This document shows positions 15,652 through 58,564 of a DNA stretch of 64,000 bases, one piece after another (positions within the stretch are counted from its first letter, which is position 1; every line of letters starts with the position of its first letter). The position numbers were made by a program, and so were the translations under genes. Below the pieces are notes generated by a model, which saw only the letters and a program-made list of their open reading frames with translations, did not search any database and was not told the origin of the DNA. Source of the stretch: Rhododendron vialii (lineage: Eukaryota > Streptophyta > Magnoliopsida > Ericales > Ericaceae); the NCBI RefSeq assembly GCF_030253575.1, contig NC_080567.1:14562501-14626500 (forward strand), written 5' to 3'.

Positions 15652-15695
<44 letters not shown>

Positions 15696-27876: not shown

Positions 27877-28976
27877 GGGTTAGACTTAGAACTGTTTTTT
27901 TTTTTAAAAAAACTGAAGAGGAATTGACTGGATTTGTATACGTGTGAGATGTTTTTGTTTTGGGTAAGTGTGAGATGTTTAGGGTTCGGTATTGAGTTCA
28001 GTCTTCGGTTGTATTCAGTTGTGTGGCTAGGGTATGGATTTGGTTGAGAAATGGGAAGTGTCCAATGGGGAAGAAGAGGGCTTGAGGGAGAGTGAGCTCT
28101 ATATATATTACGTATTATTATTATGTGTTTGTGTGAGAAGTTTCGAGCCGCTTTCGGCTTTCCCCCAGTTTATAAAAACTGTCCAGTACCGTCAGGCAGT
28201 TTTTTACTGTTTCTCTGTATGTCGATGAAGTTCAGTTTAGGCCGTTTGTGAGTTTTTTTCCTAGTCTAACTTGATTTTTGACGGGGTCTGTATGCTCGAT
28301 GAGCTTTAAAAAGCTAAAACGGTTTCGATCATTATCATAGACCTGAAATTGGCCAACAACAGATCCAAATTGGAGCAGATTGGATGGAGCCCAAATTGTA
28401 TGGGAACCGAGTCGGGAAGAAAATTGAGTTTTAAATAAAAGACAATCGTCATAGTCATACTTGATAATTTCCTGAAATTTGTTGGAATATATTTTTAAAA
28501 GAGACTATTGAAAAAGTATGTATTAGATATTGATTTAGAAAAATGCTAAGGAGAACAAGACGTAAGAGTATTAGATGAGAATCTGACTAAAGTTGTAGAA
28601 AAATAACAAAATAGATTGACATTGACAATTATAACAATTAGTTTTATTCAAACGTAGTTTATGGATTCCGCTATAAAATCTTGTACATAAAACATCAACT
28701 CGATTAAAAAATGATATAGTTAAATGACCCTATAAAAGAGGGTTTTAGCTTATTTTCTTAGAATTCTTTATTTGGTGTTATTTTTGAATTATTTATTTCT
28801 CTTGACTCAAGGAACAAAAAAGAAAAAAATATGACTAAAAGTTTTAAAAAATTTACTGGAGATAATACCAATTCAAAACAAACATATTTTTTGAACAGTT
28901 TTTCTAAAACTTTTTTCAAGTTTGAGTTTTTTTTTTACCTTTCTTATTTTTCTCGTTAATTGACAGGAATAAATAG
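27877..28976. other. F-box gene 5' flank and spacer
   Basis: A T/A homopolymer run sits at 27895-27912, just ahead of the start codon. The ORF at 28034-28228 has no domain and probably lies in promoter sequence. CTATATATATTA near 28100 is a possible TATA box for minus-strand transcription. Confidence 0.35.
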
Positions 28977-29914: not shown

Positions 29915-30350
29915 TATGATTGATTCTTAGTCCCCTGTGGACATAGGGATGGTGCCGCTGCCCCACCGAGTGGGATTTGCTTGAGTCTCACTCTGATTGA
30001 TAAATGTTCACTTCATAAAACTTGTCTCATATAATAAATATGCAAAAAATCAGTTTGATCAGATATCATAAAGTGCTTGATCATAACACTTTTATTTTGA
30101 AAAGAATAGATCTGAAGTACTAGATCAAACCACTGTAACCCATTATTTGCAAGTTATATGTGTTCCGATCAAATACGTAATAATACTCGATTGAGCTGAT
30201 TTTTTGCATACATATTCTCCGTGATGAACTTTACAAAGTAAATATTTTCGATCAATTGAGACCGAATTGGGCCCCATTTGACTGGACAACACGGTACTGA
30301 CCTTTTGAGAGGGGCATGACTATCCCTCAGCATCAGTTACCTTTTTTTTA

Positions 30351-31725
30351 GGGCAAATTTCACTGACCTCCCCTGAGGTTTCTGACACGAACAGAAACCT
30401 CTCCTGAGGTTTCTAAAATAACACTGCCCTCCCATCCTTTACCTGAAAATACCAAAGGACCCCCTCTCCGTTAATTGAACGTTAAAAACGGATGGAAAAG
30501 ATTATTTCTCTGTCCACCCACTACTAAAACTAAACTAAACTCCCAACCAAACAAAACCGATGTCATTGTACTATATTTTTTACAATACCTATACTACCCT
30601 CACCAAACTCTTTACCCCTCTTATTTATAAAATATAAAATACAAAAATCACTACACTTTGTACCCGTTTCACTTTGAGATTTTGTCCTTATTTAAAAGGT
30701 TTCACATTTGCTAATTTTCTATCAAACTTTTTTGAATTATTCGTTCGTCTCGATAAGAGGAATTGAAAAAGTAAAAAAATTAAGACTTTTACCAAATATT
30801 TTGAGAAATTCAATATTTTGGATAAAAGTAACAATTTTATATTCTTTTGATTCCTCTCGTTGAGACAAACCAATGATCCACAAAAATTAACACAAAACTA
30901 GTAAATACAAAAAAAATTCAAATATGGACAAAAATAAAAAAGCCTAAAAATCCCACAAACAGGTCCGCATGAAAAAAATTCGAATATGAACAAAAACTAA
31001 AAAGCCTAAAAATTTCACAAACAAATCCCTTAAAAACCAAAAAACAAACTATTGGCAATGGAGGGTACGGGCTTGTTAGTGGGATTTTTAGGCTTTTTGA
31101 TTTTTACGGGGTTTGTTTGTAGGATTTTTAGGCTTTTTGATTTTTGTTCATATTTGAATTTTTTCGTATTTGCAAGTTTTGCGTTAAATTTTTGTGGATT
31201 ATTATTGGCTTATCTCAACAAGAGGAATTAAAATAGTACAAAATTATTATTTTTACCCAAAATATTGAATTTCTCAAAATATTTGGAAAAAATCTTAATT
31301 TTTTACTTTTTCAATTCCTCTTATCAAGACGAACTAATAATTCACAAAAATTTGATAGAAGATTAACAAATGTGAATCCTTTTAAATAAGGACAAAATCT
31401 CAAAATGAAACCGGTACAAAGTGTAGTGATTTTTGTATTTTATATTTTATAAATAAGAGGGGTAAAGAGTTTGGTGAGGGTAGTATAGGTATTGTAAAAA
31501 ATATAGTACAATAACATCGGTTTTGTTTGGTTGGGAGTTTAGTTTAGTTTTAGTAGTGGGTGGAGAGAGAAATAACCTTTTCCATCCGTTTTTAACGTCC
31601 AATTAACGGAGAGGGGGGTCCCTTGGTATTTTCAGGTAAAAGAGGAGGGCAGTGTTATTTCAGAAACCTCAGGGGAGGTTTCTGTTCGTGTCAGAAACCT
31701 CAGGGGAGGTCAGTGAAATTTGCCC
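30351..31725. mobile_element. large foldback element, MULE-type (1375 bp)
   Basis: The first and last 40 bp are mirror complements (GGGCAAATTTCACTGACC at the left, GGTCAGTGAAATTTGCCC at the right), and the arms stay complementary for roughly 560 bp each. The centre itself repeats the GGATTTTTAGGCTTTTTGATTTT words. The 9-bp target duplication TTTTTTTTA (30342-30350 and 31726-31734) matches MULE behaviour, although a homopolymer site is weak evidence. Within each arm the GAGGTTTCTGACACGAACAG end is doubled. No coding capacity was seen. Confidence 0.85.
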
Positions 31726-31734
31726 TTTTTTTTA

Positions 31735-34988: not shown

Positions 34989-36080
34989 TTAGTTGTCGTT
35001 TGTTATTGAACTCTTCATTAAAGTTGTAGCTGCACTATTGATTTATAAAAATCTCTAATTTAATTTGAATTCGGTTATGATTTTCATAATTAGCTTTATT
35101 GATTCAATTCCTAGCATGAGTGAATAGTTAATTAGACTTGGTCATGGGGTGGTTACCATGACTTGAATTGATCATGTTTTTTTCAATAAATCTTCATGTT
35201 TAGTTGAAATCTAGTTCGTGTTTGTCTATCAAAACTTGACAGTGTTAACCTCTTTGATTTTGCGTAGCAAAGAGAGAGTCTACTTGCCACGCATGATACT
35301 TAGAGTTATGTCATCCATTGTGTTTGCTAGATGAATACTAGAACTTGTTTGGTGTTTTGACTCATTTTCTAATAAAATGGGCATAATGATAAATCTTCCA
35401 GTTTGGAAGATTGTTGATGCGTATTTTAAACCGAGTAATTCAAGAGAAAAACTGGTTGATTCGAGTTATGAGTCTTGAAATCTCATAGAGCTAGCCGCTT
35501 AGTTTAAATAGTTTTTAAAACTTGTTCTTTATCGCACATTTTCTCCGTTTCAAACTACTCTTAAAGTTGGCCGTCTCAAGGCCGTGAATCTTACTTTTAC
35601 AAATCCAATCGAGCCGTGATGATATTCCCTTGGGTACGATACCCGGACTTCCAGATTATTATGTTTCAAATGACGTATTAGCCTTACGCTTGGAGCGATC
35701 ATATATATTGATATATTGACGGACGAAGCACTTGACCCAAGAAAAATTTGACTGGGCCCATGTCTTTGGGTTGACCCAATTTCATGGTCCATTTGGCCAA
35801 TTAAGTCAGCTCATCTTATTTTTAGTCTGGCCCACTTCTTTCAAATGATTGAGCCCATACTTTGGTGAGCCCAATATTTATTTGCAGACTTTGACCAACA
35901 TTTGACTTTAATTAATTAAAATTAATTGTTCTTTTTAATTAATCGGACGGCAATTAAGCTATGCCAAAATTTTAGTATCTACAAGTAGTACCAAAGAGAA
36001 GTGCGCATCTCCGAGTAAGCATAAAACGATGCCGAATGGACCAGCGTTTCTCACGGAGTCAAACCCATTTGATTTGATAA

Positions 36081-38851
36081 TGTAACGACCCGTAATTTTA
36101 TCATTTATAATATCATTTAAAAAGTAATATTCATAATAATAAAATTAATATCCTTATTAGATATATACTAATATAATTATCCTATCCTAATTATCTTACT
36201 TTTATATATATTTTTAAAAAAAATTGCATGCATGCATGCAACCTCTTTCCATCTCTCCATCTCCTACTCAGTCTTTACTTTCTCTCCCTGATCATACCTT
36301 CACCCTTATTTTCGTCCATCTCAAAGCCCAAGAGTTAGAGTCCTTATTAAACTCAATTTTATCAACTTCTTTAAAATTCTCCTATATATACCTCATTAAT
36401 CCGACCCTAGGTCATACCACAATATTCCCCACGCCCCACCAGTCCAGAAAGGAGAGAAAAATCGGAGAGAATGAAACTCCAATCCATGGAGTTTTAGAGA
36501 GAGAAAGTGAGAGAGAGAAAAGTGGATTTTGTACCAAGACCCAACCGAAACTCGATTCGACCGTTCCAATCTCTTCCTACAACCCTTAGCATCATCAAGC
36601 ATCGTCCAATTCAATCCCAAGGTCCCCCGATCAAGGAACCCGAAGTCTTCTTCCCCAAAATTCAAGATTCATTTTTAATTCAATCCCGATCCAATTCGAG
36701 GTATTATAATCCATTCCAACCTCTCCTCTAAATATATTAAGTGTTTTTATGTTTAACCCTATGTCCCGAATGGACCCATGCATCGAAACCATGACGAAAA
36801 GATGAAAAAACGAAATCTGGACGCGACCTTGCGGCCGCAACCTTCGGGCCGCAAGAACCAGGCCTGAGTTTGCGGTTAGATGCTTAGCCGCAAGGTTGAC
36901 TCGGTCAGACCTTGCGGCAGCTGTTGTTTTGGTTCGAATCAATTTTGCAACCTCCCGAATACCGTTTTTGACCCCCGAACTATTTTTCCTAGACTTTTTA
37001 TACCTCAAAGATCATAACTTGTTAAGGTCATTTTTTTATTTAATTATCTATTTATTAAATTATTTATTAGTTATCTTTCAAAGTTTACAAACGAAAAATA
37101 GTTACGACCTTCCAAACAACGTATTAACACCCAAACTATTTTTTTCTAGACTCCTTGCATCTCAAAGATGATAACTTGTTAATTTAATAATTTTTTTAAT
37201 TTATTATTTATTGTTATTTTTATAGTATTTCCAATCGAAATTACTTTACGACCTTATAAACCTTATTATTAACGCCCGAATAATTTTATTTAGACTCCAT
37301 ACATCCTGAAGATGAAACTTTGTTAATCTCAGCATATTTTTAATAGTAAATTATTTATTACTCCCTCCGCCCAAAATGATTGTCCGGCCCGCAAAACGGA
37401 GTGATAAAAATAATGCAATTTTTTCAAGAAAAAATTCAAACTTTTTACACAAATTAAAAATACTCATTGATATCTAGTAAGTTGTTAAAAAACTTTTGAT
37501 TTTTTCTTGCAAAAATTGTATTATTTTTAACACCCCGTTTTGCGGACCGGACAAACATTTTGGGACGGAGGGAGTATCTATTTACTTCACTTTCGGTCAC
37601 TTTATTTAACGCTTTCATTTAAATTAATTCCACGACCCTCCGAGCCCAACTTTTTTACACGCAACTGGTTGCATAGGACCTTTAGGACTCTTATTAAGGT
37701 CATGTTAATTATTCTAATATTTTTATCTAATTAATGTATTTAATTAGTTTTTAATAAATCTAATTACTTATAAATAATTAATGAGAGCCTAGAAAATATT
37801 TTATTAATTTTTTATAAAAATTCCACTTCATTATTGACATTGTACCATACAAGAATAAGGGCAATGACCCATTCATAAAAAGTTGTGTGATTGCATTGCT
37901 CGTTAATTATTTTAATTATTATTTGATTTAATTGTATATTGCACCGACACTTGATTTGAATGTTAGAATGGACCCTAGAAACATGGGGTGGTATGTGAAT
38001 AGAGTTCACTTAGACGATGCTAGGTAATGGATGAATTGGAAAGTTTTATTTTCTTTAGAATGCCTGCAAGCGGGATTTTGAGATGTGATGAGTTGGATGT
38101 GATGGTTTGAAACTGGCAAAGTAAGCCCAGTGATGAATTGATACTGGCAAAGTAAGCCCAGTGATGAATATGATGATTGTGATGTGGTGCAATAAGATAG
38201 GCGAACCCTAATTATTATTCGGGCATGATAAGCTTTCTTTTGTTGTAATGAGAGGGATACACACTGGGTACATAACTTAGGTGCAATCCGCGACAGCAAA
38301 AGAAAGTGAGCTCATGGGATAGGGCATAGCTAGCGGTTGGGGAGGAAAGATCCCGTGGAGGAGATCTTAGATTACACGTCAAGTTAATGGATAGTAATAA
38401 ACTGTTTATGTGGAACAAACTCTGTTTTACTTTTTCGCACTACTATTATCCTGCTGCTTGCTAACTATAAAGTAAGAGGGGTAGCTGGGTTGGATTATAC
38501 TACGGGGTGAACTCTTTCACTCAGGTACGGATTGCCTGGCTTCCGTGCCAGATTTTGTAGAAAATCAGGAAGAGACACAGAATTCCGAAAGTGAGCAATT
38601 CTATGCAGAGGAGAATCCAGAGATGGGAGTCGAGCCAGAATATGCTTGGGATCCATATCAAACCTAGAAGACGACTCGATTATTTTGTTTAGTTTATTAC
38701 TACAAAGACTAATTTCAGTATTTCTACTATGGTTTGTAATAGATGAATCTTTAGGATGAATTATCCGTTTTGGATTTTGAATTTAATTTAACTAATTTTC
38801 AAAAATTAATATTTTGTCTTCGATTTTATTCCCAAAAATTGGGGCGTCACA
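36081..38851 (+). repeat. 5' LTR of the outer gypsy element
   Basis: 2771 bp, of which 216 bp are the Stowaway insertion and its TA duplication. It contains a 31-bp tandem pair (ACTGGCAAAGTAAGCCCAG at 38112 and 38143) that is also in the 3' LTR copy. The two LTRs remain highly similar by eye. Confidence 0.9.
37361..37574. mobile_element. Stowaway (Tc1/mariner-type) MITE in the 5' LTR
   Basis: The termini CTCCCTCCG and CGGAGGGAG are the classic Stowaway ends, flanked by TA (37359-37360 and 37575-37576). The 3' LTR reads straight through at 57285 without the insert, giving an internal empty-site control. 214 bp, no ORF. Confidence 0.95.
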
Positions 38852-38854
38852 ACT

Positions 38855-38872
38855 TGGTATCAAAGCCTTAGG
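38855..38872 (+). promoter_or_regulatory. primer binding site of the outer gypsy element
   Basis: TGGTATCAAAGCC starts 3 bp after the LTR end. It matches the complement of the initiator tRNA-Met 3' end (TGGTATCAGAGCC) with one change, the usual primer for chromovirus-type and many other plant LTR elements. Confidence 0.85.
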
Positions 38873-39122
38873 TTCAAACCATCGGCCTTGGGTAGTTTGG
38901 GTAGATCACATTAGATTAAGTATTTCACTACAAGTTTAAAATGACACTGTTTGAAATATACCGAAACCTAACGATAAATATATTTTTCTTGCTTTTATAG
39001 ATGGACCCCATGTTTGCAGACCAACTAGCCGATGAATAGAGCAGATTGCAGGACTTCTTGGAAAACACCGTAGGATCCGACTTCTCTTTTCGAGACTTTA
39101 CGTACATACTGAGTTCCCAATT

Positions 39123-40538
39123 ATGTATGCTCAATATCAGCAGCTGATGGCGAATCCGCCAAACCAGAGGGAAGTATACACGGCTCAGCATCCAAGCCCA
39201 TGGAGAAGGGCTAACCTCGAGAAGGAAATCCATGATATTCTAGAAAGCATACCAGGCTTTGATATCAAGAGCGAACCCTATTACTCATATTATAGGGATA
39301 TGAATAACCAGCCTCCGATTCCCACCCCAGACCGGAACCATAACCCTCCCAATATTTAGGAGGAGGATGAGATGGCCCAGCTAACTGCGGAAGTAGAAAA
39401 CCTAAAGGCATTCATGACAGCCACCCCAGATTTTTCAATGGGAGATGATTATTTGGCAGGAATGTTCCCTACCCTATATCGGATGAGACAGGCTCACCGA
39501 AGGATTTCAGCTCTCGCCGACGCCGTCACCCGCTCCACCGTTGAAGACCATGAGATACGAGGCATACTAACCTACATCCTCGGAGTACAAGTGGGACCGC
39601 GAGGGAATCCCGAAGAACCCCCTGAGGAAGAGGGAGATCCTGAGGAACCCCCTGAGCAAGAAGAGGATCCCGAAGAACCCCCCGAGGAGGAAGAAGACCC
39701 AGAAGAGCCTCCATTTCCAGGATTAGACCACGACTACCATTTGGGCCCCTGGCAGCCAGAGCAGGAGGAGCCAATAGCACCAGAGGAAGGGCAAAACCAG
39801 GATGAAGAGATGGGCAATGATGAGCCAGAATTAGAAGAAGATGCAGAAAACAGCACTGACAGTGAAGATGGATTTTTGGCAGAACCGGAGATGGATGATT
39901 ATGGCTGGCTCTTACCCATAGATGCACCAAGAGATATGGATGCCGAGCTGCAGTGGTGGCTGACTAGCCAACGGCTCGAAATGCAGGAACCTCTACCTTC
40001 TCCAGTTCCCGTACCAATGGAAGAATCAGACAGTGAGTGTGAAGTCATAGATGCCGACCCTCCACCTCGTCCTAAGATGGCTTGACCCGCAGGAATTCCA
40101 TGGGTAGGACACCATTCTGACTATGGTCCAAACACTTGGGTCTATATACAGCTAGAACCGCTATACCCTTGCCCATTTAAGATCAGGGCACAATCAGCTT
40201 ACCTAGGGCTAGTAAAGATCCAAGCCCCATGTTATAATGGATACTATCTCATCGCTGTACCTCAAGGATTTCGGGAACACTACACCGACAACATCCATTA
40301 TTCACGAGTCGCAAGGTCCCGTCCCGAGCAGGAACATCGTATCATTTTAGAGAATGCCGACTTCACCGATCACATCACCTATGCAGAGATACCCATCCGC
40401 CTAGAACCTTATAACTACCCAAACCCCAACCAGCAGGAACCACTATGGCGAGTAACATGGCGTTGCTACGGGCTCACAGAGGACACCATCGAAAAGCAGA
40501 GTCTTCTAAGAGAGCATTTTCTAATGCTTTTCGATTGA
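39123..40538 (+). pseudogene. extra acidic ORF upstream of gag in the outer gypsy element
   Basis: One reading frame from 39123 to 40538 is broken only by TAG at 39357 and TGA at 40083. A further related stretch from 39001 is in another frame with its own stop. The first part has helical, polar sequence. The middle has an acidic Pro-Glu tandem repeat (DPEEPPEEE-type units, about 39606-39712) followed by a long Glu/Asp tract. The last 150 codons are a compact, aromatic-rich, non-repetitive region that looks like a folded domain. No known domain was recognised. It is distinct from gag, which starts 295 bp later. Extra ORFs before gag are known in a few Ty3/gypsy groups (for example Ogre), with unclear roles. 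Confidence 0.65.
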
Positions 40539-40832
40539 TCGATTTCTTTAGCACCTACTAGTTATTTATGCGCAGCATTTTTATTTATTTATTTTATTTT
40601 ATGTTTTGTTTCTTCCTAAGAGAACAATTGTGGTAGTGGGAATTATCTTGACTTTTAGTAGCTACACATCTGAGTAGTATATTTTAACATGATTGATGTG
40701 TTTGATTCGTTTTGTTAATAAAAGAAAAGTTTCTGATGATGTTCTGTTTTCATGTATTTAATAAATTTATACAAATATATATGTTCTCATAATAAACCCC
40801 CCCTTACTAAATTATAACATAACGATATCTAG

Positions 40833-43800: not shown

Positions 43801-45215
43801 ACTTATTTACCCAGAAAGAGCTAAACATGAGACAAATGAGATGGGTGGAATACTTGGAGGATTTCAACTTCACAATATCTTATCATCCTGGAAAGGCAAA
43901 CGTAGTCGTTGATGTGCTGAGTCGCAAGAACCGAGGACAAGTGGCTAGTTTAGCCATAAGAGAGTGGAAAATGATGGAGGACCTTAACAGCTTCAAACTG
44001 CAACCAACCGCAGAAGGCACTGACGCGTGTCTCTTCGCCATAGTCACAACTCCAGCCTTGCACCGAGAACTTCTTTTAGCTCAAACCTTTGAACAAGAAT
44101 GCGACTTCATCCGGCATCAACTCTCAATTGGAACATCAGCAGCCGGGTGGGAGATCCACGCTGATAAGAGCCTCCGCTTCCGGGGAAGAATCTTTGTACC
44201 AGACATCGGTACCCTCCGGGAAGCAGTACTTAAGGAATTCCACCATTCCAACTTCGCCGTCCACCTAGGGAGCACCAAGATGTACCAAGACCTCCACCGA
44301 CAGTACTGGTGAGTTGGAATCAAGAGGGATGTGGCCAAATACGTCTCATAATGCCTCACTTGCTAGCAAGTAAAAGCGGAACATCAGAAACCCGGTGGGA
44401 CCCTACAACCATTACCTATACCTGGATGGAAGTGGGAACATATTGCCATGGATTTTGTGGCAGGATTGCCAAGGTCTCCACAATCAAACACCGCCATTTG
44501 GGTGATAATTGACCGTTTAACCAAATCCGCCCACTTTTTACCCATGAAGATGACGGATTCGATGGATTCCCTCAGCACGCTCTACATACGAGAAATCATG
44601 CGATTACACGGTGTACTCGTATCCATCGTGAGTGATCGAGATTCACGATTCACGTCGACCTTTTGGGGTAGCCTGCAGAAAGCTTTAGGAACCGACCTTC
44701 GTCTCAGCACCGCATTTCACCCACAGACGGACGGACAATCCGAAAGAACAATCCAAATCTTAGAAGACATGCTCCGCGCTTGTGTTTTGGACTTTAAAGG
44801 AAGTTGGGAACGACACCTACCCCTAGTTGAGTTCGCCTATAACAACAGCTATCAATCCAGCATAGACATGGCACCATACGAAGCTCTGTATGGGCGACCT
44901 TGTCGCTCGCCAGTTTGTTGGGCTGAATTGGGAGAAGCAAGCTTACTAGGACCAGAGTTAGTCCGAGAGACGACAGAAAAGATCCAAACCATTTGCCAAC
45001 GGCTCCTAACCGCGCAAAGTCGACAAAAGAGCTACGCTGACAAGAGGACCAGACCATTGACCTTTCAGGTTGGAGAACATGTGCTCTTGAAGATCAGACC
45101 ACAAAAAGGAGTTATCCGATTCAGAAAGAAATGAAAACTGTCACCACGATACATTGGCCCTTTTGAGATCCTCGAGAAAATTGGAGAAGTGGCGTACCGC
45201 CTAGCACTACCGCCA
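40833..45215 (+). pseudogene. gag-pol of the outer gypsy element (nine stop codons, no frameshift)
   Basis: A single frame runs from ATG 40833 to the deletion junction. Stops lie at 40875, 41733, 41988, 42783, 42846, 44310, 44349, 44364 and 45132. Domains in order: Retrotrans_gag (about 41040-41510); CCHC knuckle (41820-41865) whose His is replaced by Gln; protease with DSGA (42159); RT with the motif A Asp (42963) and FIDDIL; RNase H (about 43580-43920); integrase with a zinc-finger remnant (about 44240-44370) and a D..D..E core (about 44450-44900); and the start of the C-terminal domain ([11 protein letters not shown], to 45215). The rest, including any chromodomain, is deleted. Confidence 0.92.
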
Positions 45216-45552
45216 CAACTTCTTTAAAATTCTCCTATATATACCTCATTAATCCGACCCTAGTTCATACCACAATATTCCCCACGCCCCACTAGTCCAG
45301 AAAGGAGAGAAAAATCGGAGAGAATGAAACTCCAATCCATGGAGTTTTGAGAGAGAAAGTGAGAGAGAGAAAAGTGGATTCTGTACCAAGACCCAACCGA
45401 AACTCGATTCGACCGTTCCAATCTCTTCCTACAACCCGTAGCATCACCAAGCATCGTCCAATTCAATCCTAAGGTCCCCCGATCAAAGAACCCGAAGTCT
45501 TCTTCCCCAAAATTCAAGATTCGTTTTTAATTCAATCTGATCCAATTCTAGG
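45216..45552 (+). repeat. 3' LTR of the outer gypsy element, first piece (5'-truncated)
   Basis: Matches the 5' LTR from 36363 onward, so the first 282 bp of the LTR, the polypurine tract and the pol end are missing. The join shares CAACTTCT with the 5' LTR sequence. The piece ends at the Tat insertion with CTAGG. Confidence 0.9.
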
Positions 45553-46365
45553 TGTAGGGGGATGAAAACAATTGATGCTTCGGATCACCTTGGATTGCAA
45601 CGGCTTATTCGTGCCTTTTCATCGGAACCCTAATTCGTCGTCGGAACCCTAATCTGCAAAATAGACGGGGGGTGAATGCACCTCTGCCTCTTGTGGCAAA
45701 GGCCTTCCAATGGCAAAGTTAGTATCACGTACTTGTCAATAAACCCTAATTATCAGTAGGAAATATCAAATAATGCAACGTATTGCGTACCTTTCACCTT
45801 TAGGTTTACCTTATATTTATAGATTCATGGATGCTTGCTGCCCAATTTTTCCTGTTGCCCTAGGATTCCTATTTCGTATAGGAAACCCTGGATATCAAGG
45901 ACTCTCGTTCCTTAACTAGTTCATTACTTTAATCCTTGTAGGACTCTTTTCCATAACGGGCCGAACATCCCATTCCCGTTGGGTATCTTTTCTAGATCCT
46001 ACTCTCTCGGGATCTTATTCCTTAACGGAATACCACCGTTTCTGGACCCTTCCAGAGTGTTTCCTTTACTCCAACATCTGATTGGATTTCTTTCCCTGTT
46101 CGGCTGTCTCATCGCCAAACAGACTGTATAGACCAGTCACTTCACATGCAACTGGTTTTTATCGTTGTGTTTTGGACAAATGACCTCACATGTCTTCTGT
46201 CTTTATCAGCCGAATAGACTGCATGGATCAATGACTTCCCATATCATTGGTTCATATCGCCGTTCACCACATTGCCCGGTGATAAGTCCTGTCATACTTA
46301 CCGTGTGATCCCAAATATCACGTGTTCGGCAACTAGATGTATCTGTTCGGGAATACCTCCCTACA
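45553..46365 (-). repeat. 3' LTR of the nested Tat element
   Basis: 813 bp. In coding orientation this is the downstream LTR. It differs from the partner at 55812-56624 by scattered substitutions only. Confidence 0.93.
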
Positions 46366-46942
46366 ATTGCTCCCTAGCTTCATTTATCTGCCACTGTTCG
46401 GGGGCAATATATGAAGCTTAGAAACGAATGTTTAGACCAAAGTCTTCTGATCCCGTGCAGTCATTGTATTTAATACTTCATTGATGCTTTTGGCGCCTCT
46501 GTCATTATACCATTTCGGGGTAATGACTCCACGTGGCACGTTTTGTATGCCTAACATTAATTTCGAACTGACGTTCTTTCGAACGGCGTCAGAACGACAT
46601 TTGCTTTCCGTTACTTTTACTTGTAACGGCGTGAAACGAGATGGTTTCGTCTCCGTCTCTTTCACTTAAATCCCAAAGAGGATGTTTTTTGGATTTTTCT
46701 CCAAAGCTTGAGCCTTCTCTTTCTCTCTCTAAAACCAGGCGAATATATCCCGCCTCACATCCGCCATCGCCGTCGTCTGCAAATTCGATTGCGTTCCAGG
46801 GAACCACTGCAATAGTTTCGTAAGACTTCTTATTCTTGCTCCTTCTTGTGTCTTATTCTGAGATTCGATCCAAATTTTTGGTTTTTTAGGGTTTCGATTG
46901 CACCTAGTTTCCGATTCTATCCTGCTCATTTCTTTCGTATCC
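46366..46942 (+). promoter_or_regulatory. leader and presumed promoter of the antisense gene in the Tat element
   Basis: The 577 bp between the LTR and the ATG at 46943 carry a CT-rich tract (about 46711-46731), typical of a plant 5' leader. On the minus strand, the purine-rich AGCTAGGGAGCAA next to the LTR (46367-46379) may be the polypurine tract of the element. Confidence 0.45.
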
Positions 46943-48986
46943 ATGGCGGATGAAAATCTTCCAAAACCCAGTAAGTTTAGGAAACTCTGTGAAACCCCAA
47001 CTGCCATGGCGGCATTTAGGACTGAGTATAGCATTCTTGATAATGTGGGGCTCGAACTTGCCCCTCTAGGAGCAGATAGGGATGGTGGCTTATGGGATAG
47101 AATGTGTATCCCTATTGTGGCCATTGTTGAAGGTGGAGTCCGATTTCCTCTTCACCCATTACTCCGCCAGATCCTAAACTGGTACCGTCTCACCCCCATG
47201 CAAGTATCAACAAACGTTTTTAGGCTGATAATGGGAGTAGTAGCTTTGAATAGGATTCTGGGGACCCAGCTAGGAATTTGGGACATTCAGTGGTGGTACA
47301 GCATTGTACTAAACCCTGAATACAATACTTACTACTTCAAAGTTAGAAGGGCAGAAAAACGTCTCGTGCTAAACCTGCCAGACTCTGCTCGGGATCATGA
47401 AATCGATTTCCTCTACGTCACTGGAGGCTTTGAGCCACTAGGAGAGGATGGTCAGGTGATGGGCCTCTATTGCCCCCACATATGGGGATACCCACGTATG
47501 CTTCTCATTTTTCATTTATGCATTTTGCATTTTCCCTTGTTATTGTACTTCTGCTTATTTTAACCTCTGTTTATGCCTTGACCTACAGCGGAGAATGCTA
47601 ATAGGCGTCCAAGACGTGAACCAAGCTACATCCGAACAGCTGAGATTAACAGGGTTTTGAAGTATTCAGGTGAACCCAGCACCTCAACAGCTGGTCGGGG
47701 TCGGAACGCTGACGTGCTTTTGGGATACGATCCCTATTACAGAGGTGTTATCGATATAAGACTTGCAAACCCAAGTACCAGTGCTGCCTCAACTTCGACC
47801 ATTCCACAGCCGAGGAGTCTAAGATCTAGTGGTGGAGTGACAATCGCCGGGCAGTTGGGTGAAGTCCCTATTTCAGAAGGCGTTCCGCTACCTCGGGTAA
47901 GAGTTCGAAGACCCTTGCTGAGACAGGCTGCCTATCAACCACAGCCCGAACAGTCAGCTCCCAGCCGCGTGACCAGCCAATCCTCCTCTTCAGGTTATTC
48001 TCCATCTCCTCCACACTCAAGCACTATGACACGTCAGCCCTTAAACCTCAGCTCCTTTCTCACCGTCTCTTCTCGGGGACGTGGATCTGGTCGGGTAGCT
48101 TCTACTGGGAACGCTCCTCCCGTACCCCGTCGCAACAGAGGAGGTTCTACCTGCTCCCCTTCATCTACCCAAGGAGCGGATTCTGCTCTCGATGCTGGTG
48201 ACGCTCATCGAGATAAAAGGCCTAGATCCGAAGACCCAGCTAGTACTGCTTCTCAAGCAGATATAGAAACCCATCACCCCACGTCGCCAACTACTCAATT
48301 ACTTCCCCAGACATGGACTCCTCCATTCAGTAGGGGAGACCGTCCCGTTCACGTTGGAGACAGTGCTAGTTCGTCAGAAACAGCACTTGCCCTGGCTCAA
48401 GGGTTGTTACTCCCAGTTGATATGCAGAAAGAATTCGGATCCCCACCTGATCGCCTTGTAGCCACTGGTCTCGTCAGTGGTATTAAGGTAATAACAAAAA
48501 CTTTTCCTTAAACAAGTTTCAACCCTTGTGTTATACTTGATCATTAACTCTTTTGGTATTCCATTGTTCATTCAAAAAATGGTCGTATTGGGACAAAAAC
48601 TTTAAGAGATCGAGCAAGAGCGCAATAGGCTTTTGAAAGATAACACAAGGCAGCTTCAAACAATGACAAGACTGGAGAGAGAGAGAGACAAGGCAAAACT
48701 GGAAGCAGCAGGTACTAAGGAAAAGCTTGAAACTGCTGAGGAGAGTCTCAGCCAAGCACTGTCCGAAATTGATAGTACCAAAAAGGCGGCCTATGAAGAT
48801 GGATACCAGAAGGGCTTCGACGCCATAACAGCAAGTTATGTCGAACAGATGCCAGCCATACAGGACCAGATCTGGGTTGCCAGCTGGAAGGCTTGTCTGA
48901 CAAAAGTTGGTATCGCTGAAGACTCTCCTCTCTGGGTGGAAAATGATCTGCCGAGTAGACATTCTGCAGCAGCTTCTCAGGAATAA
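46943..48986 (+). CDS. antisense spliced gene of the Tat element, Transposase_28-like domain
   Basis: Three exons are inferred: 46943-47495, 47589-48487 and 48609-48986, all with GT..AG borders and a continuous frame of 609 aa. Residues about 55-160 (VRFPLHPLLRQILNWYRLTP, then LGIWDIQWWYSI) match the PF04195 Transposase_28 (putative gypsy-type transposon) pattern. Exon 2 then encodes a long Ser/Pro/Arg-rich disordered region, and exon 3 a coiled coil (LERERDKAKLEAA, KLETAEESLSQAL) followed by a compact tail. The frame continues for 73 more codons past the TAA at 48984 to 49205, so the stop may be a recent truncation. Antisense extra ORFs with this domain are known in Tat elements; the function is not known. 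It lies opposite to gag-pol and converges on pol. Confidence 0.75.
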
Positions 48987-49205
48987 AAGGAGTCCCCAGA
49001 GGTTGATGTTGAGCAGGAGATTGAAGATTTTGTTAATGCGAGGGAGGATACGCCAACTGACATTCATCCCATACAATCACCTGCTCGGGAATCAACCCTT
49101 GAACCCATTAATTTGGAGGAGAATGCAACTGAAGGTGATACAACTGCGGGAGCCAGTGGAGAGGTTCCAAATGTAACTCGTTCAGAAATCCAAAATTTAG
49201 ATTGA
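48987..49205 (+). pseudogene. in-frame continuation of the antisense gene after its stop
   Basis: Directly after the TAA the same frame stays open for 72 codons of acidic sequence (EIEDFVNAREDTP, LEPINLEENATEG) ending at TGA 49203-49205. The composition fits the upstream protein, which suggests the ancestral stop is here. Confidence 0.6.
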
Positions 49206-49379
49206 CTTGGTAAGTCTGCATAAAGAACTTTAAACAATGTTGGCTGGTCCTACGTGACCATGATATTCGAGCCCTGCGTGGCATCAATACTATTTGATAC
49301 TTTGCATGACACAGGTATTCGGCCCCTTGTGGCATAACTATATCATTTGCTCGGTTCCCCTCGTTTTTGCATCTGTTCG

Positions 49380-49885
49380 GATGCAAATAGTTTTATCTAA
49401 GTATTTCGTACTTGGATCCGTGTAATCACATGTTTGCTTGCATATAAGCATTCAGTATTTAGCAAATATTGTGAACATCATTCCACTTTTTGTTCTTTCT
49501 AAGTTTCTCGTACTTAAATGCTTTTCTAAGTCTCTTGTACTTTCAAGTTTCACGTACTTAAAAACCATACAAGTGTTGTATACTTGTATGTGTTTAACTT
49601 TTTAAGTTGCACGTACTTAAAAATCATACAAGTTTTCATACTTGTACTCGTTAAGTTTCACGTACTTAAAAATCATACAAGTTTTTCATACTTGTATTCG
49701 TACACCATTTAAGTTTCACGTACTTAAATGTATAGGTGTTTGTTTGAACTGAATTTAAGTTGCACGTACTTAAAAAAGTTCTAAGTTTCTTGTACTTAAA
49801 AACTTTCTGAATGTCACGTACTTTTGAACTGATTGTAAGTTTTACGTACTTAAAATCTTTCTAAGTTTCTCGTACTTCTTTTGAA
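49380..49885. repeat. short tandem repeats with AAGTTTCACGTACTTAAA units
   Basis: About a dozen copies of AAGTTTCACGTACTTAAA or its TCTCGTACTT variant lie at irregular spacing, interleaved with ATACAAGTTTTCATACTTGTA palindromic words. The block lies between the ends of the two convergent transcription units of the Tat element. Confidence 0.8.
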
Positions 49886-50124
49886 CGGAGTTGTCTGTTC
49901 CCTGCTCCCCAATACGAATGAGGGAAACCAAGCCCGTAGTTCGTATTTTTTAGACAAAAACCAAGAACGCAATATTTAAAAAGTGATTTTATTCATAATC
50001 TGCCAAACTCAAGAGGGCGTTATTCGTACCCCTTGCAACTAAAATAACAAAACTAGAACAAGGGAATTATATTCGTAACTCCCACATAAGCACGTAGTGC
50101 GATCTAAAACAGAACTTAATGCTT

Positions 50125-50480
50125 CTAAATAAAGAATTTTCGTAGATTATGGACATTCCAAGGCCTCGGAATTGGATTACCATCCAAATCTGCCAATTTA
50201 TAGGCCCCTATGCCTACAATCTCGGTTACTCGATATGGGCCTTCCCAGTTTGCCCCCAACTTGCCTTCGTTGGCCACCTTGGTGTTGCCGAGCATCTTTC
50301 GTAGTACTAGGTCTCCAACACCAAATTCTCGAGGATGAACGTGCTTATTATAGCTCTTCATCAACTGTTCCTAGTAGGACGCCAGATGGACCAAGGCACT
50401 TTCCCTCCTCTCCTCGGCGAGGTCAAGCTCAATTTCAAGGGCCTTATCATTGCCCCGCTTGCGACTAATGCGGTCCTATT
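50125..50480 (-). pseudogene. C-terminal end of Tat integrase, detached by a frameshift and a stop
   Basis: The frame encoding HPREFGVGDLVLRKML, NWEGPYRV and GAYKLADLDG is the usual integrase C-terminal end of this group. It is separated from the main pol frame by a 1-nt change near 50460 and by a TAG at 50371-50373. Confidence 0.85.
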
Positions 50481-53399
50481 GGTCAGAAGACCAACTTCCA
50501 GAGGTATGACAGCCTCTGTTCCATATGCCAATGAATAGGGGGTCTCTCCCGTAGACCTTCTAGGCGTTGTTCGGTGAGCCCATAGTACTAATGGTAACTC
50601 GTCAGGCCACTTCCCTTTGGCTTTGTCCAGCCTCTTCTTGATCCCGTCAAGGATAGTTTTATTAGACGCCTCTGTCTGCCCATTACTCTGAGGGCAAGTT
50701 GGGGTTGAATAATAATTTCGTATTCCGTACTGGACACAAAAAGCCTTAAATTTCTTCTGAAATTGGGATCCATTGTCTGTAATTAATGAGTAAGGGACCC
50801 CAAAGCGAGTGATGATGCTCTTCCACACGAACCTTTCTATCATAGGTTTAGTGATTTTGGCCAATGGTTCTGCCTCAATCCACTTAGTGAAATAGTCTGT
50901 TGCAACTAGCAGGAATTTTTGATTCCCAGTTGCTTTGTGTAGGGGACCCACGATGTCCATTCCCCATTGAGCAAATGGCCAAGGACTTGTCAAAGGCACC
51001 AGATCCTCGGCTGGTGTTCGAATCATTGGTGAGAATTTTTGACATTTTTCACAAATTTTCACATACACCTTTGCATCTTCCTGCATGTATGGCCACCAGT
51101 AGCCTTGGGTAATTGCTTGGTGGGCAATGGATCTGCCTCCAGCATGGCTCCCACATGTTCCCTCGTGGATTTCATGAAGAAATTTCTGCACCATCTCAGG
51201 ATGTACGCATAGCAAATACGGGCCTGTAAAGGATTTTCTGTATAACTTACCCTCTGGGGACAGCCAAAACCTAGCAGATTTGATCTTTATCTTATGAGCC
51301 TCCTTTTTGTCAGAAGGGAGTATCTCGTCTCGTAAGAACTCTATGATTGGGTCCATCCAACTTGGTCCTTGGTTCACATCCAAGACCAAGTCCACACTTC
51401 TCCCAATGCTCGACTCACTCAAATATTCTACTGCCACCTTCCTTTTGAACTCAGTTGGTACAGCTGTAGCCAACCAAGCTAACGAATCTGCTTGAGCATT
51501 TTGTCCGGAACTTATCTGTTCAATGTATGCCCTTTCGAAGGTATCAAGCAGGTCTTTGGCTGCCTGTACGTAGGCTTCCATCTTTTCACTTCGGGTTTCA
51601 TATTCCCCGGACAGCTGATTAACCACAAGTTGTGAATCACAATACACCCTAACCCGTTCTGCTTTTAGGGTTTTTGCACTCCTCAAGCCAGCTAAAAGTG
51701 CCTCGTACTCCGCCACATTGTTTGATGCACTAAAATCGAGTCGAACAGATAGTTCGATCAGTACTCCTTCAGGAGGAAAAAGGACAACCCCAATTCCTGA
51801 ACCAGTATTATATGCTGATCCATCAACAAATAACTTCCATTCCATAGGGTCCTGTTCGGCTGAGGGTTGAATCTTCATGGGTGATGTCTTAGTCGCCTGT
51901 TCCTTTCTCGTAGGAGGTAGGGGAGCCACCGTAGGAGAAAACTCTGCCACAAAATCTGCCAATACTTGGCCTTTGATTGCTGTGCGTGGCTGGTAATCGA
52001 GATCGTACTGACTTAACTCGACGGACCACGTCGAGATCCTTCCCGAAAAGTCTGCTTTTCGTAGTAGTGATTTCAATGGAAACTCAGTATAAACCACAAC
52101 CTTGTGGCTTTGGAAGTAGTGTGGCAGTTTCCTTGTGGCTGTTCTAAGTGCCAGGACAAGTTTTTCTAAGGGCAGATATCTCGTCTCTGCATCCAGTAGC
52201 GTCTTGCTAACATAATAAATAGGGATTTGTTCGATTCCCAAATCCCTCAACAGGACTGCACTTACTGCATGCTCAGAAACAGCTAAGTACAAAATTAAAG
52301 ACTCACCTGGCTGTGGAGTTGACAAAAGTGGGGGCTCGGCCAAATACTTTTTTAGGTCCTGGAAGGCATGTTCACACTCTGCTCCCCATTCGAATCCCTC
52401 CCTCTTTTTTAATAATTGAAAGAAGGGTATGCACTTGTCACTTGACCTGCTGATAAATCTATTAAGTGTTGCAGCCATTCCAGTCAACCTCTGGACTTCC
52501 TTAGTGGCTTTGGGACTTTGTAGCCTTTGTAGGGCTGCAATTTGATCAGCGTTAGCCTCAATCCCTCTCATGGTCACCAAATGGCCCAGGAACTTTCCAG
52601 AACCGACTCCAAACGCACATTTCGAGGCGTTGAGTTTCAGTTTGTACTCCCTCAGAATTTCAAAAGCTTCTTTTAAATCAGCTATATGCCCCCGTTTATC
52701 TTGACTTTTCACCACCATATCATCTATGTAAACTTCCATAGTCTTTCCAAGAAGCCTTTTGAACATAATGGTTGCAAGTCTTTGGTATGTTGCCCCAGCA
52801 TTCTTTAGCCCAAACGGCATAATACTATAGCAGTACAACCCTCGTGGTGTGATAAATGAAGTCTTCTCTTGATCAGGCCCAAACATAGCAATCTGATGAT
52901 ATCCTCGATATGCATTGAGAAAACTCATTCGCTCATAACCAGCGGTTGAGTCAACCAACTGGTCAATCCTTGGAAGAGGAAAACTATCTTTTGTACATGC
53001 CTTGTTTAGGTCTGTGAAGTCTACGCAGACACGCCACTTCCCATTCTTTTTCTTCACCACAACGATGTTGGATAACCACTCTAGGTAGTAGACTTCACGT
53101 ATTGCTTTGGCCTCCAGTAAACGATCGACCTCTTCAATTACTGCATCCAAATGCTGCACGGCTGCCCTCCATTTTTTCTGAATGATCGGCTTATGCTGAG
53201 GATCAATGTTTAAATGATGACAAATCACACCTGCATCTACTCCGGGCATTTCCTCTGGTACCCATGCAAATACATCAACATATTCTTTCAGAAATCTTAT
53301 TGATTCAGCCTTTTCGTCCGCTGGTAATGATTCTCTGATTAAGAAATATCTTTCAGGATCAGTCTCGTTGATCTGAATTTTCTCCAAGCCTTCAACCAC
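50361..53399 (-). CDS. Tat element pol: reverse transcriptase, RNase H, integrase
   Basis: A 1012-codon uninterrupted frame. RT is at about residues 60-330, with YIDD at 224-227. The motif A residue is Asn 162 (SFLNAYRGYHQI) where the family has Asp. A first RNase H follows, then a second RNase H-like domain starting KLFVDGSAYNTGSG, the dual arrangement common in Tat. The integrase has a zinc finger (HEGTCGSHAGG, then CEKCQKF) and core motifs (WGMDIVGPL, SLITDNGSQF, TEASNKTI). The natural N terminus lies upstream of the first Met. The frame differs from gag by one position, with a roughly 30-nt overlap at 53453-53486. The last 30 residues are out of frame with the family. Confidence 0.92.
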   Translation of the reverse strand: MVEGLEKIQINETDPERYFLIRESLPADEKAESIRFLKEYVDVFAWVPEEMPGVDAGVICHHLNIDPQHKPIIQKKWRAAVQHLDAVIEEVDRLLEAKAIREVYYLEWLSNIVVVKKKNGKWRVCVDFTDLNKACTKDSFPLPRIDQLVDSTAGYERMSFLNAYRGYHQIAMFGPDQEKTSFITPRGLYCYSIMPFGLKNAGATYQRLATIMFKRLLGKTMEVYIDDMVVKSQDKRGHIADLKEAFEILREYKLKLNASKCAFGVGSGKFLGHLVTMRGIEANADQIAALQRLQSPKATKEVQRLTGMAATLNRFISRSSDKCIPFFQLLKKREGFEWGAECEHAFQDLKKYLAEPPLLSTPQPGESLILYLAVSEHAVSAVLLRDLGIEQIPIYYVSKTLLDAETRYLPLEKLVLALRTATRKLPHYFQSHKVVVYTEFPLKSLLRKADFSGRISTWSVELSQYDLDYQPRTAIKGQVLADFVAEFSPTVAPLPPTRKEQATKTSPMKIQPSAEQDPMEWKLFVDGSAYNTGSGIGVVLFPPEGVLIELSVRLDFSASNNVAEYEALLAGLRSAKTLKAERVRVYCDSQLVVNQLSGEYETRSEKMEAYVQAAKDLLDTFERAYIEQISSGQNAQADSLAWLATAVPTEFKRKVAVEYLSESSIGRSVDLVLDVNQGPSWMDPIIEFLRDEILPSDKKEAHKIKIKSARFWLSPEGKLYRKSFTGPYLLCVHPEMVQKFLHEIHEGTCGSHAGGRSIAHQAITQGYWWPYMQEDAKVYVKICEKCQKFSPMIRTPAEDLVPLTSPWPFAQWGMDIVGPLHKATGNQKFLLVATDYFTKWIEAEPLAKITKPMIERFVWKSIITRFGVPYSLITDNGSQFQKKFKAFCVQYGIRNYYSTPTCPQSNGQTEASNKTILDGIKKRLDKAKGKWPDELPLVLWAHRTTPRRSTGETPYSLAYGTEAVIPLEVGLLTNRTALVASGAMIRPLKLSLTSPRRGGKVPWSIWRPTRNS

Positions 53400-53452
53400 C
53401 TTTTCAGCCGGACTTCTTCCAACATCCTCGATAGTTGGTTGATCTGGTATTT

Positions 53453-55810: not shown

Positions 55811-55811
55811 T
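55794..55811 (-). promoter_or_regulatory. primer binding site of the Tat element
   Basis: Read on the minus strand, TTGGCGCCGTCTGTGGG follows the LTR directly. TGGCGCC-type sites of this kind are the usual tRNA primer sites in Tat/Athila-related elements; the exact tRNA is not determined here. Confidence 0.65.
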
Positions 55812-56624
55812 TGTAGGGGGATGAAAACAATTGATGTTTCGGATCACCTTGGATTGCAACGGCTTATTCGTGCCTTTTCACCGGAACCCTAATTCGTCGT
55901 CAGAACCCTAATCTGCAAAATAGATGGGGGGTGAGTGCACCTCTGCCTCTCGTGGCAAAGGCCCTTCAATGGCAAAGTTAGTATCACGTATTTTTCAATA
56001 AACCCTAATTATCAGTAGGAAATATCAAATAATGTAACGTATTGCGTACCTTTCACATTTAGGTTTACCTTATATTTATAGATTCATGGATGCTTGCTGT
56101 CGAAGCTTTCCTGTTGCCCTAGGATTCCTATTTCGTATAGGAAACCCTGGATATCAAGGACTCTCGTTCCTTAACCAGTTCATTACTTTAATCCTTGTAG
56201 GACTCTTTTCCATAACGGGCCGAACATCCCATTCCCGTTGAGTATCTTTTCTAAATCCTACTCTCTCGGGATCTTATTCCTTAACGGAATACCACCGTTT
56301 CTGGACCCTTCCAGAGTGTTTCCTTTTCTCCAACATCTGATTGGATTTCTTTCCCTGTTCGGCTGTCTCATCGCCGAACAGACTGTATAGACCAGTCACT
56401 TCACATGCAACTGGTTTTTATCGTTGTGTTTTGGACAAATGACCTCACATGTCTTCTGTCTTTATCAGCTGAAAAGACTGCATGGATCAATGACTTTCCA
56501 TATCATTGGTTCATATCGCCGTTCACCACACTGCCCGGTGATAAGTCCTGTCATACTTACCGCGTGATCCCAAATATCACGTGTTCGGCAACTAGATGTA
56601 TCTGTTCGGGAATACCTCCCTACA
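55812..56624 (-). repeat. 5' LTR of the nested Tat element
   Basis: 813 bp, upstream LTR in coding orientation. Same length as the partner LTR, with TGTAGGG/CCCTACA ends. Confidence 0.93.
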
Positions 56625-58559
56625 CTAGGTATTATAATCCATTCCAACCTCTCCTCTAAGTATATTAAGTATTTTTATGCTTAACCCTATGCCCCGAATG
56701 GACCCATGCATCGAAACCATGACGAAAAAATGAAATCTGGACGCGACCTTGCGGCCGCAACCTTCGGGCCGCAAGAACCAGGCCTGAGTTTGCGGTTAGA
56801 TGCTTAGCCGCAAGGTTGACTCGGTCAGACCTTGCGGCAACTGTTGTTTTGGTTCGAATCGATTTTGCGACCTTCCGAATACTATTTTTGACCCCCAAAC
56901 TATTTTTTCTAGACTTTTTATATCTCAAAGATCATAACTTGTTAAGGTCATATTTTTTTTATTTAATTATCTATTTATTAAATTATTTATTAGTTATCTT
57001 TCAAAGTTTACAAACGAAAAATAGTTACGACCTTCCAAACAAGGCATTAACACCCAAACTATTTTTTTCTAGACTCCCTGCATCTCAAAGATGATAATTT
57101 GTTAATTTAATAATTTTTTTAATTTATTATTTATTGTTATTTTTATAGTATTTCCAATCGAAATTACTTTACGACCTTATAAACCTTATTATTAACGCCC
57201 GAGTAATTTTATTTAGACTCCATACATCCTGAAGATGAAACTTTGTTAATCTCAGCATATTTTTAATAGTAAATTATTTATTATCTATTTACTTCACTTT
57301 CGGTCACTTTATTTAACGCTTTCATTTAAATTAATTCCACGACTCTCCGAACCCAACTTTTTTACACGCAACTGGTTGCATAGGACCTTTAAGACTCTTA
57401 TTAAGGTCATGTTAATTATTCTAATATTTTTATTTAATTAATGTATTTAATTAGTTTTTAATAAATCTAATTACTTAGAAATAATTAATGTGAGCCTAGA
57501 AAATATTTTATTAATTTTTTTATAAAAATTCCACTTCATTATTGACATTGTACCATACAAGAATAAGGGTAACGACCCATTCATAAAAAGTTGTGTGATT
57601 GCATTGCTCGTTAATTATTTTAATTATTATTTGATTTAATTGTATATTGCACCGACACTTGATTTGAATGTTAGAATGGACCCTAGAGACATGGGGTGGT
57701 ATGCGAATAGAGTTCACTTAGACGATGCTAGGTAATGGATGAATTGGAAAGTTTTATTTTCTTTAGAATGTCTGCAAGCGGGATTTTGAGATGTGATGAG
57801 TTGGATGTGATGGTTTGAAACTGGCAAAGTAAGCCCAGTGATGAATTGATACTGGCAAAGTAAGCCCAGTGATGAATATGATGATTGTGATGTGATGCAA
57901 TAAGATAGGCGAACCCTAATTATTATTCGGGCATGATAAGCTTTCTTTTGTTGTAATGAGAGGGATACACACTGGGTACATAACTTAGGTGCAATCCGCG
58001 ACAGCAAAAGAAAGTGAGCTCATGGGACAGGGCATAGCTAGCGGTTGGGGAGGAAAGATCCCGCGGAGGAGATCTTAAATTACACGTCAAGTTAATGGAT
58101 AGTAATAAACTGTTTATGTGGAATAAACTCTGTTTTACTTTTTCGCATTACTATTATCCTGCTGCTTGCTAACTATAAAGTAAGAGGGGTAGTTGGGTTG
58201 GATTATACTACGGGGTGAACTCTTTCACTCAGGTACGGATTGCCTGGCTTCCGTGCCAGATTTTGCAGAAAATCAGGAAGAGACACAGAATGCCGAAAGT
58301 GAGCAATTCTATGCAGAGGAGAATCCAGAGGTGGGAGTCGAGCCAGAATATGCTTGGGATCCGTATCAAACCTAGAAGACGGCTCGATTATTTTGTTTAG
58401 TTTATTACTACAAAGACTAATTTCAGTATTTCTACTATGGTTTGTAATAGATGAATCTTTATGATGAATTATCCGTTTTGAATTTTGAATTTAATTTAAC
58501 TAATTTTCAAAAATTAATATTTTGTCTCCGATTTTATTTCCGAAAATAGGGGCGTCACA
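56625..58559 (+). repeat. 3' LTR of the outer gypsy element, second piece
   Basis: Resumes with the second CTAGG copy and matches the 5' LTR from about 36697 to its end GGGGCGTCACA. It lacks the Stowaway at the matching site (about 57285). Confidence 0.93.
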
Positions 58560-58564
58560 GATAA

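Follow-up and report, generated by a model that had tools for sequence, protein, structure and literature searches.

A conserved extra open reading frame upstream of gag in Tekay-type retrotransposons of Rhododendron vialii, with a C-terminal module resembling the integrase end

Introduction

Tekay elements are an abundant class of plant retrotransposons. Reports of extra open reading frames (ORFs) on the 5′ side of their gag genes go back to at least 2012, with no agreement so far on a domain or a function. The window analysed here, a stretch of 64,000 nucleotides of the Rhododendron vialii genome (contig NC_080567.1, positions 14,562,501 to 14,626,500, forward strand), contains such a frame in the outer of two nested elements, and raises the question of whether the frame is, or was, a gene, to what its product is related, and what that product might do for the element. 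A link between this frame and the GPY/F-chromodomain end of the integrase, for which we argue below, gives one extra ORF a testable role and bears on target choice by type II chromodomains, which lack the aromatic cage.

The outer element and the inner element that splits it

The outer element is bounded by the target-site duplication GATAA, at 36076..36080 on the 5′ side and 58560..58564 on the 3′ side. Its 5′ LTR, which runs from TGTAACGACC to GGGGCGTCACA, lies at 36081..38851 on the plus strand and is followed at 38855..38867 (+) by the primer-binding site TGGTATCAAAGCC, read from the sequence, which we take to be of the initiator tRNA-Met type. Next on the plus strand come the extra ORF (39123..40538), a non-coding, A+T-rich spacer (40539..40832, 26.5% G+C) that separates it from gag, and the gag-pol frame from 40833 to about 45215, in which 9 stops fall within 1461 codons. 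The 3′ LTR, also on the plus strand, is a remnant of which the first part (45216..45553) and the remainder (56627..58559) are separated by the inner element. The two LTRs differ by 0.026 substitutions per site over 2265 sites. Near 45216 there is a deletion joint, at which the window copy has lost its integrase chromodomain, the beginning of the 3′ LTR and whatever was between the two; the integrase of the window copy (45132-45216 region) stops at this joint, and a chromodomain-like end is present in locus L031, the stretch downstream of the sister copy L019. By its motifs, the outer element presumably belongs to the Tekay clade, a clade other than that of Ogre.

The 5′ LTR carries an inverted-repeat, MITE-like insertion at about 37359-37576 that is not in the 3′ LTR. 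The inner element (about 45553-56624, with LTRs at 45553-46365 and 55812-56624) has its gag-pol on the minus strand, with an RNase H and a second RNase H-like domain (RVT_3) ahead of the integrase, and a plus-strand ORF at 46862 that gives a Transposase_28 match below cut-off (E 3.7e-5), the organisation reported for Retand elements that bear a 3′ ORF in antisense.

The pre-gag frame is a decayed copy of a real gene

The original prediction described a frame of about 470 codons broken by just two stops, and this description holds: the frame at 39123-40538 (+) has 472 codons, with internal stops at 39357 (TAG) and 40083 (TGA) and a terminal TGA at 40536. When the region was shuffled with dinucleotide composition preserved, the best forward frame contained 19.2 stops on average, and none of 2000 shuffles had two or fewer. 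A codon-usage score trained on the gag-pol of the same element was 0.144 for this frame, against a shuffle mean of 0.025, and was equalled in 0 of 2000 shuffles; by piece, it was 0.195 in the second and 0.135 in the third piece, and 0.000 in the first 78 codons. The acidic tract opens frames by itself, its longest open run being 241 codons against a maximum of 238 in 1000 shuffles, and openness alone is therefore weaker evidence within this tract. Shuffles of the last 150 codons were stop-free in some frame in 7 of 2000 cases.

The compositional features that had first been remarked upon are likewise borne out. The Pro-Glu repeat, at 39601-39706, consists of 3.6 tandem copies of a 30-bp unit that encodes ten residues, and lies within an acidic linker at 39591..40082 (+); the middle piece of the ORF has a pI of 4.05 and 29.5% Asp plus Glu, and aromatic residues (Phe, Trp, Tyr) make up 14.7% of the last 150 codons. 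Between the repeat units, 11 of 14 minimal changes are at third codon positions (binomial P 7e-4; pN/pS 0.06), the fourth unit being cut at six codons, slightly beyond the end given by the repeat finder.

One claim had to be revised, namely that the ORF starts at 39123. Among nine copies inspected, L018, L019 and L020 have an ORF of 507-508 codons that begins MDPTFAD... at the equivalent of position 39001, whereas the ORFs of L016 and L021 have other starts and 478 and 480 codons, respectively. In the window copy this ATG lies in another frame, and a stop at 39037 and a frame break stand upstream of 39123. Since the three intact copies read through in a single frame, the window copy is also N-terminally damaged, with 39001..39122 (+) as the damaged N-terminus.

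With 2 internal stops in 471 codons, compared with 9 in 1461 for gag-pol, the extra frame has decayed no faster than gag-pol. Simulation from the LTR divergence gave expectations of 0.7 and 2.3 stops, respectively, both of which are exceeded by the observed counts. The frame at 39123-40538 is thus a decayed copy of a real gene.

Copies in the host genome and purifying selection

In the host's own genome (532.6 Mb, 13 contigs), at least 45 DNA matches to the extra frame and at least 93 protein matches to the 507-residue ORF were found, pieces being counted apart in both searches; among the viral contigs and plasmids searched, no relative of the extra ORF was found. Thirty loci were retrieved, L001 being the window copy, and the 27 that cover most of the frame were aligned. 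Of these 27, the window copy included, five are stop-free with indels in multiples of three bases only (L016, L018, L019, L020 and L021), and 22 have a stop or a frame-breaking indel; L014 is stop-free but has a one-base deletion. Relative to the window copy, 23 of the 43 distinct indels in the ORF have lengths divisible by three, compared with 11 of 54 in the spacer and 11 of 30 in gag, the last count taking in badly aligned divergent gags.

Pooled Nei-Gojobori dN/dS ratios were computed over chosen sets of the 351 pairs, with codons containing stops or indels excluded. The ratio was 0.22 for open against open copies (10 pairs; wrong frames 1.21 and 0.97), 0.24 for open against near copies (25 pairs; 1.29 and 1.02), 0.22 for open and near copies against L023-L026 (32 pairs; 0.99 and 0.98) and 0.27 for L029 against others (7 pairs; 0.79 and 0.95). 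For gag, the same four sets gave 0.21, 0.24, 0.24 and 0.36 in that order. The N-terminal, acidic and C-terminal thirds of the ORF each stayed below 0.45 in the four sets.

Within the near copies (L001-L011, 55 pairs), the ratio rose to 0.38 (wrong frames 0.69 and 0.75), with 0.56 in the acidic part (0.63 and 0.58) and 0.44 in the C-terminal part (0.48 and 0.83), so that in these two parts the frame signal is faint, little or none. Deep copies among themselves gave 0.34 (0.60 and 0.89). The raised ratios among near and deep copies are what neutral decay after insertion would add, and are still weak evidence. Taken together, the extra ORF has been conserved under purifying selection. The original prediction had pointed to relatives as the place where a spurious frame would betray itself, by unconstrained sequence, random indels or absence; the relatives instead number at least 45 DNA matches, the ratio among the five open copies is 0.22 in frame and 23 of 43 indels are in threes, so the prediction was not refuted.

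A second element family

A second family, at about 45% identity to the 507-residue ORF, was retrieved at seven loci (L063-L068 and L073), and in four of the seven (L063, L064, L065 and L067) a complete ORF of 368 codons is open. In 6 of 6 loci inspected (L063-L068) the ORF is followed by gag, with 53-59% protein identity to the window gag, after a spacer of about 335-360 bases where both ends are readable. Family 2 by itself gave a pooled dN/dS of 0.42 over six pairs, one of which reached 0.90. A third group (L069-L071) consists of pieces with the C-terminal part, and gag was not seen in the short stretches retrieved. At least two element families therefore carry the extra ORF at an equivalent position.

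The family-2 ORF has a single N-terminal domain and a short acidic linker, whereas in family 1 the domain is present twice, as A and A′. The second copy, A′, lies in the window at 39372..39597 (+), with approximate limits transferred from L018. Domain A of family 2 matches A′ of L018 at E 3.9e-6 (0 of 2000 shuffles), while A′ of family 1 matches its own A only at E 0.001 (13 of 2000 shuffles). Domain A could not be assigned to any known domain, and neither the N-terminal domain nor the middle matched gag or pol above shuffle level. The predicted product is composed of a helical N-terminal domain, an acidic Pro-Glu linker and a C-terminal module that resembles the end of an integrase.

The C-terminal module and the integrase end

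As a reference pol we used L031, in which the scanned frame contains RNase H, integrase and SH3_Tf2-1. The last approximately 135 residues of the extra ORF match the end of the element's integrase, i.e., the GPY/F-SH3 part plus the chromodomain. In Smith-Waterman comparisons with the integrase end, family 1 scored 116 against a shuffle maximum of 60 and family 2 scored 100 against 61 (0 of 5000 shuffles each); the local score of group 3 was 63 against 62 (0 of 5000), which is marginal alone. When eight comparisons were made with 150-residue blocks from elsewhere in pol, the scores remained at shuffle level, and in whole-protein BLASTP (E 7e-8 for L018, 7e-7 for L063) the integrase end was the sole significant region. 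HHalign of a 15-row profile against the integrase end gave a probability of 96.5 and E 1e-9 over 134 columns. At the level of sequence, these scores establish homology of the C-terminal module to the integrase end, of which it would be a diverged paralog. In the window, comparison with the integrase places the GPY/F-SH3-like part at 40131..40358 (+, limits approximate) and, together with the PDB comparisons, the chromodomain-like part at 40359..40535 (+), which includes the conserved Tyr 40380, Trp 40458 and Tyr 40467.

Searches of the PDB point in the same direction with less force. With the chromodomain part without the integrase row, CDYL2 chromodomains accounted for four of the five matches at E ≤ 10, the best E of 0.07 being not significant alone; with the integrase row included, 13 of 16 matches were chromodomain proteins (best E 0.0022, CDYL2), seven being so classed by name and the other six being MPP8 and DNA methyltransferase chains. 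The profile of the whole module returned an oxygenase first (E 0.13) and CDYL2 second (E 1.3). In Pfam, no family was above cut-off for the C-terminus in the six copies given, and Chromo (PF00385) gave no match; SH3_Tf2-1 appeared for L063 only, at E 0.17, below cut-off and level with a chance match at E 0.19. The integrase of L031 itself has SH3_Tf2-1 and a Chromo match of only E 0.15 for its own chromodomain.

The original prediction held that the terminal segment looks folded. Homology to the integrase makes this likely, but structure prediction does not confirm it. The AlphaFold2 model from 32 rows has a mean pLDDT of 43, with N-terminal helices, a long disordered middle, five strands at residues 235-304 (block means 41-71), chromodomain residues 311-348 below 50, the last 18 residues near 70 and, in the chromodomain part, one short strand and a terminal helix near 70; the last 150 codons modelled alone gave 36. 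Structure comparison was uninformative and covered the helical N-terminus only. With such low confidence, the model cannot confirm an SH3/chromodomain fold of the C-terminal module.

Aromatic cage positions

The segment V-T-W-R-C-Y-G of the extra ORF aligns without gaps with I-R-W-K-G-Y-G of CDYL2, placing Trp 40458 at W45 and Tyr 40467 at Y48 (cage numbering after PMC3350952). Trp is kept at W45 in 24 of 27 copies, with two of the three changed codons being stops, and Tyr at Y48 in 26 of 27. At these positions the L031 integrase carries W and R, i.e., the tryptophan only. All 27 copies have Tyr 40380; the integrase and 2m2l alignments disagree on the register and do not place Y24 there, although by the HP1 motif its spacing to the following Ile would fit Y24. 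As we understand one source, type II chromodomains have lost Y24 and Y48, and Tekay has kept W45 (PMC3350952). Two further sources state that only among Tcn1, Chlamyvir and Galadriel elements does a significant share have the cage motif (PMC6317226) and that group II chromodomains are without the aromatic residues (PMC12786077).

Mosaic copies: the extra ORF beside different gags

Three copies, L023, L024 and L025, have the LTR end, leader and ORF in common with family 1 (the ORF at 83-85% DNA identity to the window), with a gag protein that is only 43-53% identical to the window's over its main part. The partial locus L030 has the family-1 extra ORF and a similarly divergent gag, at 49%. In the gag tree, which leaves out L029, the branch that carries L023-L025 measures 0.84 substitutions per site; their gag is 41-44% identical to that of family 2 over the main pieces, and is thus not family 2's. 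The pol after L023, by comparison, is 82% identical in protein to the pol after L019. These four copies are a mosaic lineage in which gag was replaced by a third gag lineage. The presence of the extra protein beside different gags speaks against a tight partnership with Gag. Pol, where inspected (after L023), was retained.

Relation to known extra ORFs

The original prediction knew of no such protein in Del/Tekay-like elements. That statement was too broad, as the class is known, e.g., ORF0 of Retrosat2, RIRE3 and RIRE8 (PMC3485330) and the 5′aORF of sunflower (PMC11728184), and a class eORF-5′F is named for plant elements in the accessible part of a third source (PMC6317226). The present ORF has the marks of a Tekay-type 5′ additional ORF (ORF0, 5′aORF or eORF-5′F): it lies in sense orientation between primer-binding site and gag, exceeds the minimum length of 250 codons (507-508 codons here, 368 in family 2), and its protein is conserved over many copies, as judged from the match counts and dN/dS above. 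Thus, pre-gag extra ORFs in Tekay are known, and the integrase-end-like C-terminal module is new.

The grass ORF0 elements resemble the outer element in having an extra sense ORF between the 5′ LTR and gag-pol, in being of the Del/Tekay type and in their long LTRs, which end in TGTCACACCC...GGGCGTGACA compared with TGTAACGACC...GGGGCGTCACA here (PMC3485330). According to the accessible text, ORF0 of Retrosat2, FRetro3, RIRE3 and RIRE8 was found only in grasses, a role as a metabolic enzyme was proposed, and ORF0 changes faster than gag-pol, yet with a Ka of 0.26 well below a Ks of 1.65 (PMC3485330). Unlike the ORF reported here, ORF0 is described in that text without chromodomain or integrase homology, a comparison by description and not by sequence (PMC3485330). 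The 5′aORF of sunflower Tekay group 2, likewise from a eudicot Tekay element, has an equivalent position and was kept in 500 of 523 elements; its 402 residues are proline-rich and mostly disordered, with three helices, a helical C-terminal nuclear localisation signal and, in the part of the report accessible, no known domains (PMC11728184). Compared with it, again by description, ours has an acidic tandem repeat, an integrase-like C-terminus and a middle piece without a basic cluster.

To the C-terminus of the Tekay integrase (GPY/F plus type II chromodomain), the extra protein is homologous along some 135 residues, and the W45 block and an E-x-T-x-E stretch fall within this region. It differs in being a separate protein upstream of gag, in having V, L, I or M in place of the W of the integrase TWE motif, and in keeping an aromatic residue at Y48, which is reported as lost there (PMC3350952). 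Ogre ORF1 is likewise a pre-gag sense ORF. Its plant mobile domain, present in 57% of Ogre elements according to the accessible text (PMC6317226), has no counterpart in our ORF, for which no Pfam match was above cut-off, and the earlier view that the make-up is unlike that of Ogre therefore stands. In the literature searched, which lay largely outside subscription journals and supplements, no Tekay 5′ extra ORF was found to be reported with a part derived from, or similar to, an integrase or chromodomain.

Proposed role and alternatives

We propose, with a probability of roughly 0.6, that the product of the extra ORF is an accessory chromatin adaptor of a Tekay-type Ty3/gypsy element, with a C-terminal module that is a paralog of the integrase end. 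Gag and the extra ORF would be read from differently spliced RNAs, a suggestion based on both start codons (39001 and 40833) lying directly after acceptor-like TAG sites. The extra protein would then act as a separate chromatin adaptor, whose chromodomain-like end binds to nucleosomes or to some chromatin protein in a way that the integrase itself may no longer use, while its other parts may bridge to the integration complex or to the element's own chromatin; the integration site or silencing would be affected as a result. Binding to chromatin or histones had already been guessed from the acidic tract, and this guess fits the chromodomain-like C-terminus, although the best clue is the terminal domain and not the acidic tract. 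A bolder and still speculative extension, to which we give a limited chance of being correct, is that in some eudicot Tekay elements the chromatin-reading end of the integrase was duplicated onto a pre-gag protein, where the methyl-lysine cage was kept or regained while it was lost in the integrase, so that reader and integrase divide the labour. If true, this split would account for chromatin recognition by type II chromoviruses and would give at least this ORF a purpose.

VANC proteins act on VANDAL transposons. A comparable anti-silencing or transcription factor, acting on the element's own LTR or leader DNA with a chromodomain-like end that reads the silencing mark, is an alternative that we consider unlikely; Vandal aORF proteins are described as protecting against silencing in the accessible part of the sunflower report (PMC11728184). 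In favour of such a factor, LTR end, leader and extra ORF stay similar in L023-L025 though gag is replaced, so that the protein goes with the LTR end and leader and tolerates different gags. Against it, the shared pol, inspected after L023 only, means that this pattern may only mark a recombination point, and domain A contains no recognised known domain. The same mosaic copies bear on a role as a cofactor of Gag or the particle, in assembly or RNA packaging, with translation from genomic RNA. In both families the ORF immediately precedes gag and shares its orientation, which would suit this role, a role that we nevertheless judge improbable: the ORF is found beside at least three divergent gag lineages, at 43-59% protein identity to the window's or their own class, and its only recognised homology is to integrase, with the N-terminal domain and middle matching neither gag nor pol.

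The aORF proteins of grass Tekay elements have been suggested to suppress RNA silencing or to bind double-stranded RNA (PMC11728184, accessible part). Here, that role draws on analogy of position and on a DRBM protein among the weak PDB matches (E 0.89, integrase row included), a match that is far below the chromodomain matches and disappears without the integrase row; moreover, in the accessible text, TM-scores against a DRBM protein were just 0.35-0.37 for maize and sorghum, and sunflower gave no match (PMC11728184). We thus regard it as highly improbable. Lowest of all stands a chance or relic open frame without function, to which the two stops and N-terminal damage of the window copy and the stop or frame-breaking indel in 22 of 27 copies could be taken to point. 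It is refuted by the dN/dS, which is 0.22 in frame but close to 1 in the other frames; five open copies, the excess of indels in threes over the spacer (23/43 vs. 11/54) and a gag-pol that decays as fast in the window copy stand against it as well, leaving it a negligible chance.

Other features of the window

A near-palindrome of about 1.4 kb, 87% self-complementary, lies at 30350-31726, with short relatives at 58961-59308. Transposon remnants at 14003-16823, which we take to be Harbinger-like, include DDE_Tnp_4 at 15333-15824 (minus) and a Myb/SANT-like ORF at 14721-15134 (minus); a further Myb/SANT-like ORF is at 9818-10237. Two likely host genes are on the minus strand, one for an F-box protein with FBA_3 (26740-27879) and one for a calmodulin-like protein with four EF-hands (63124-63618).
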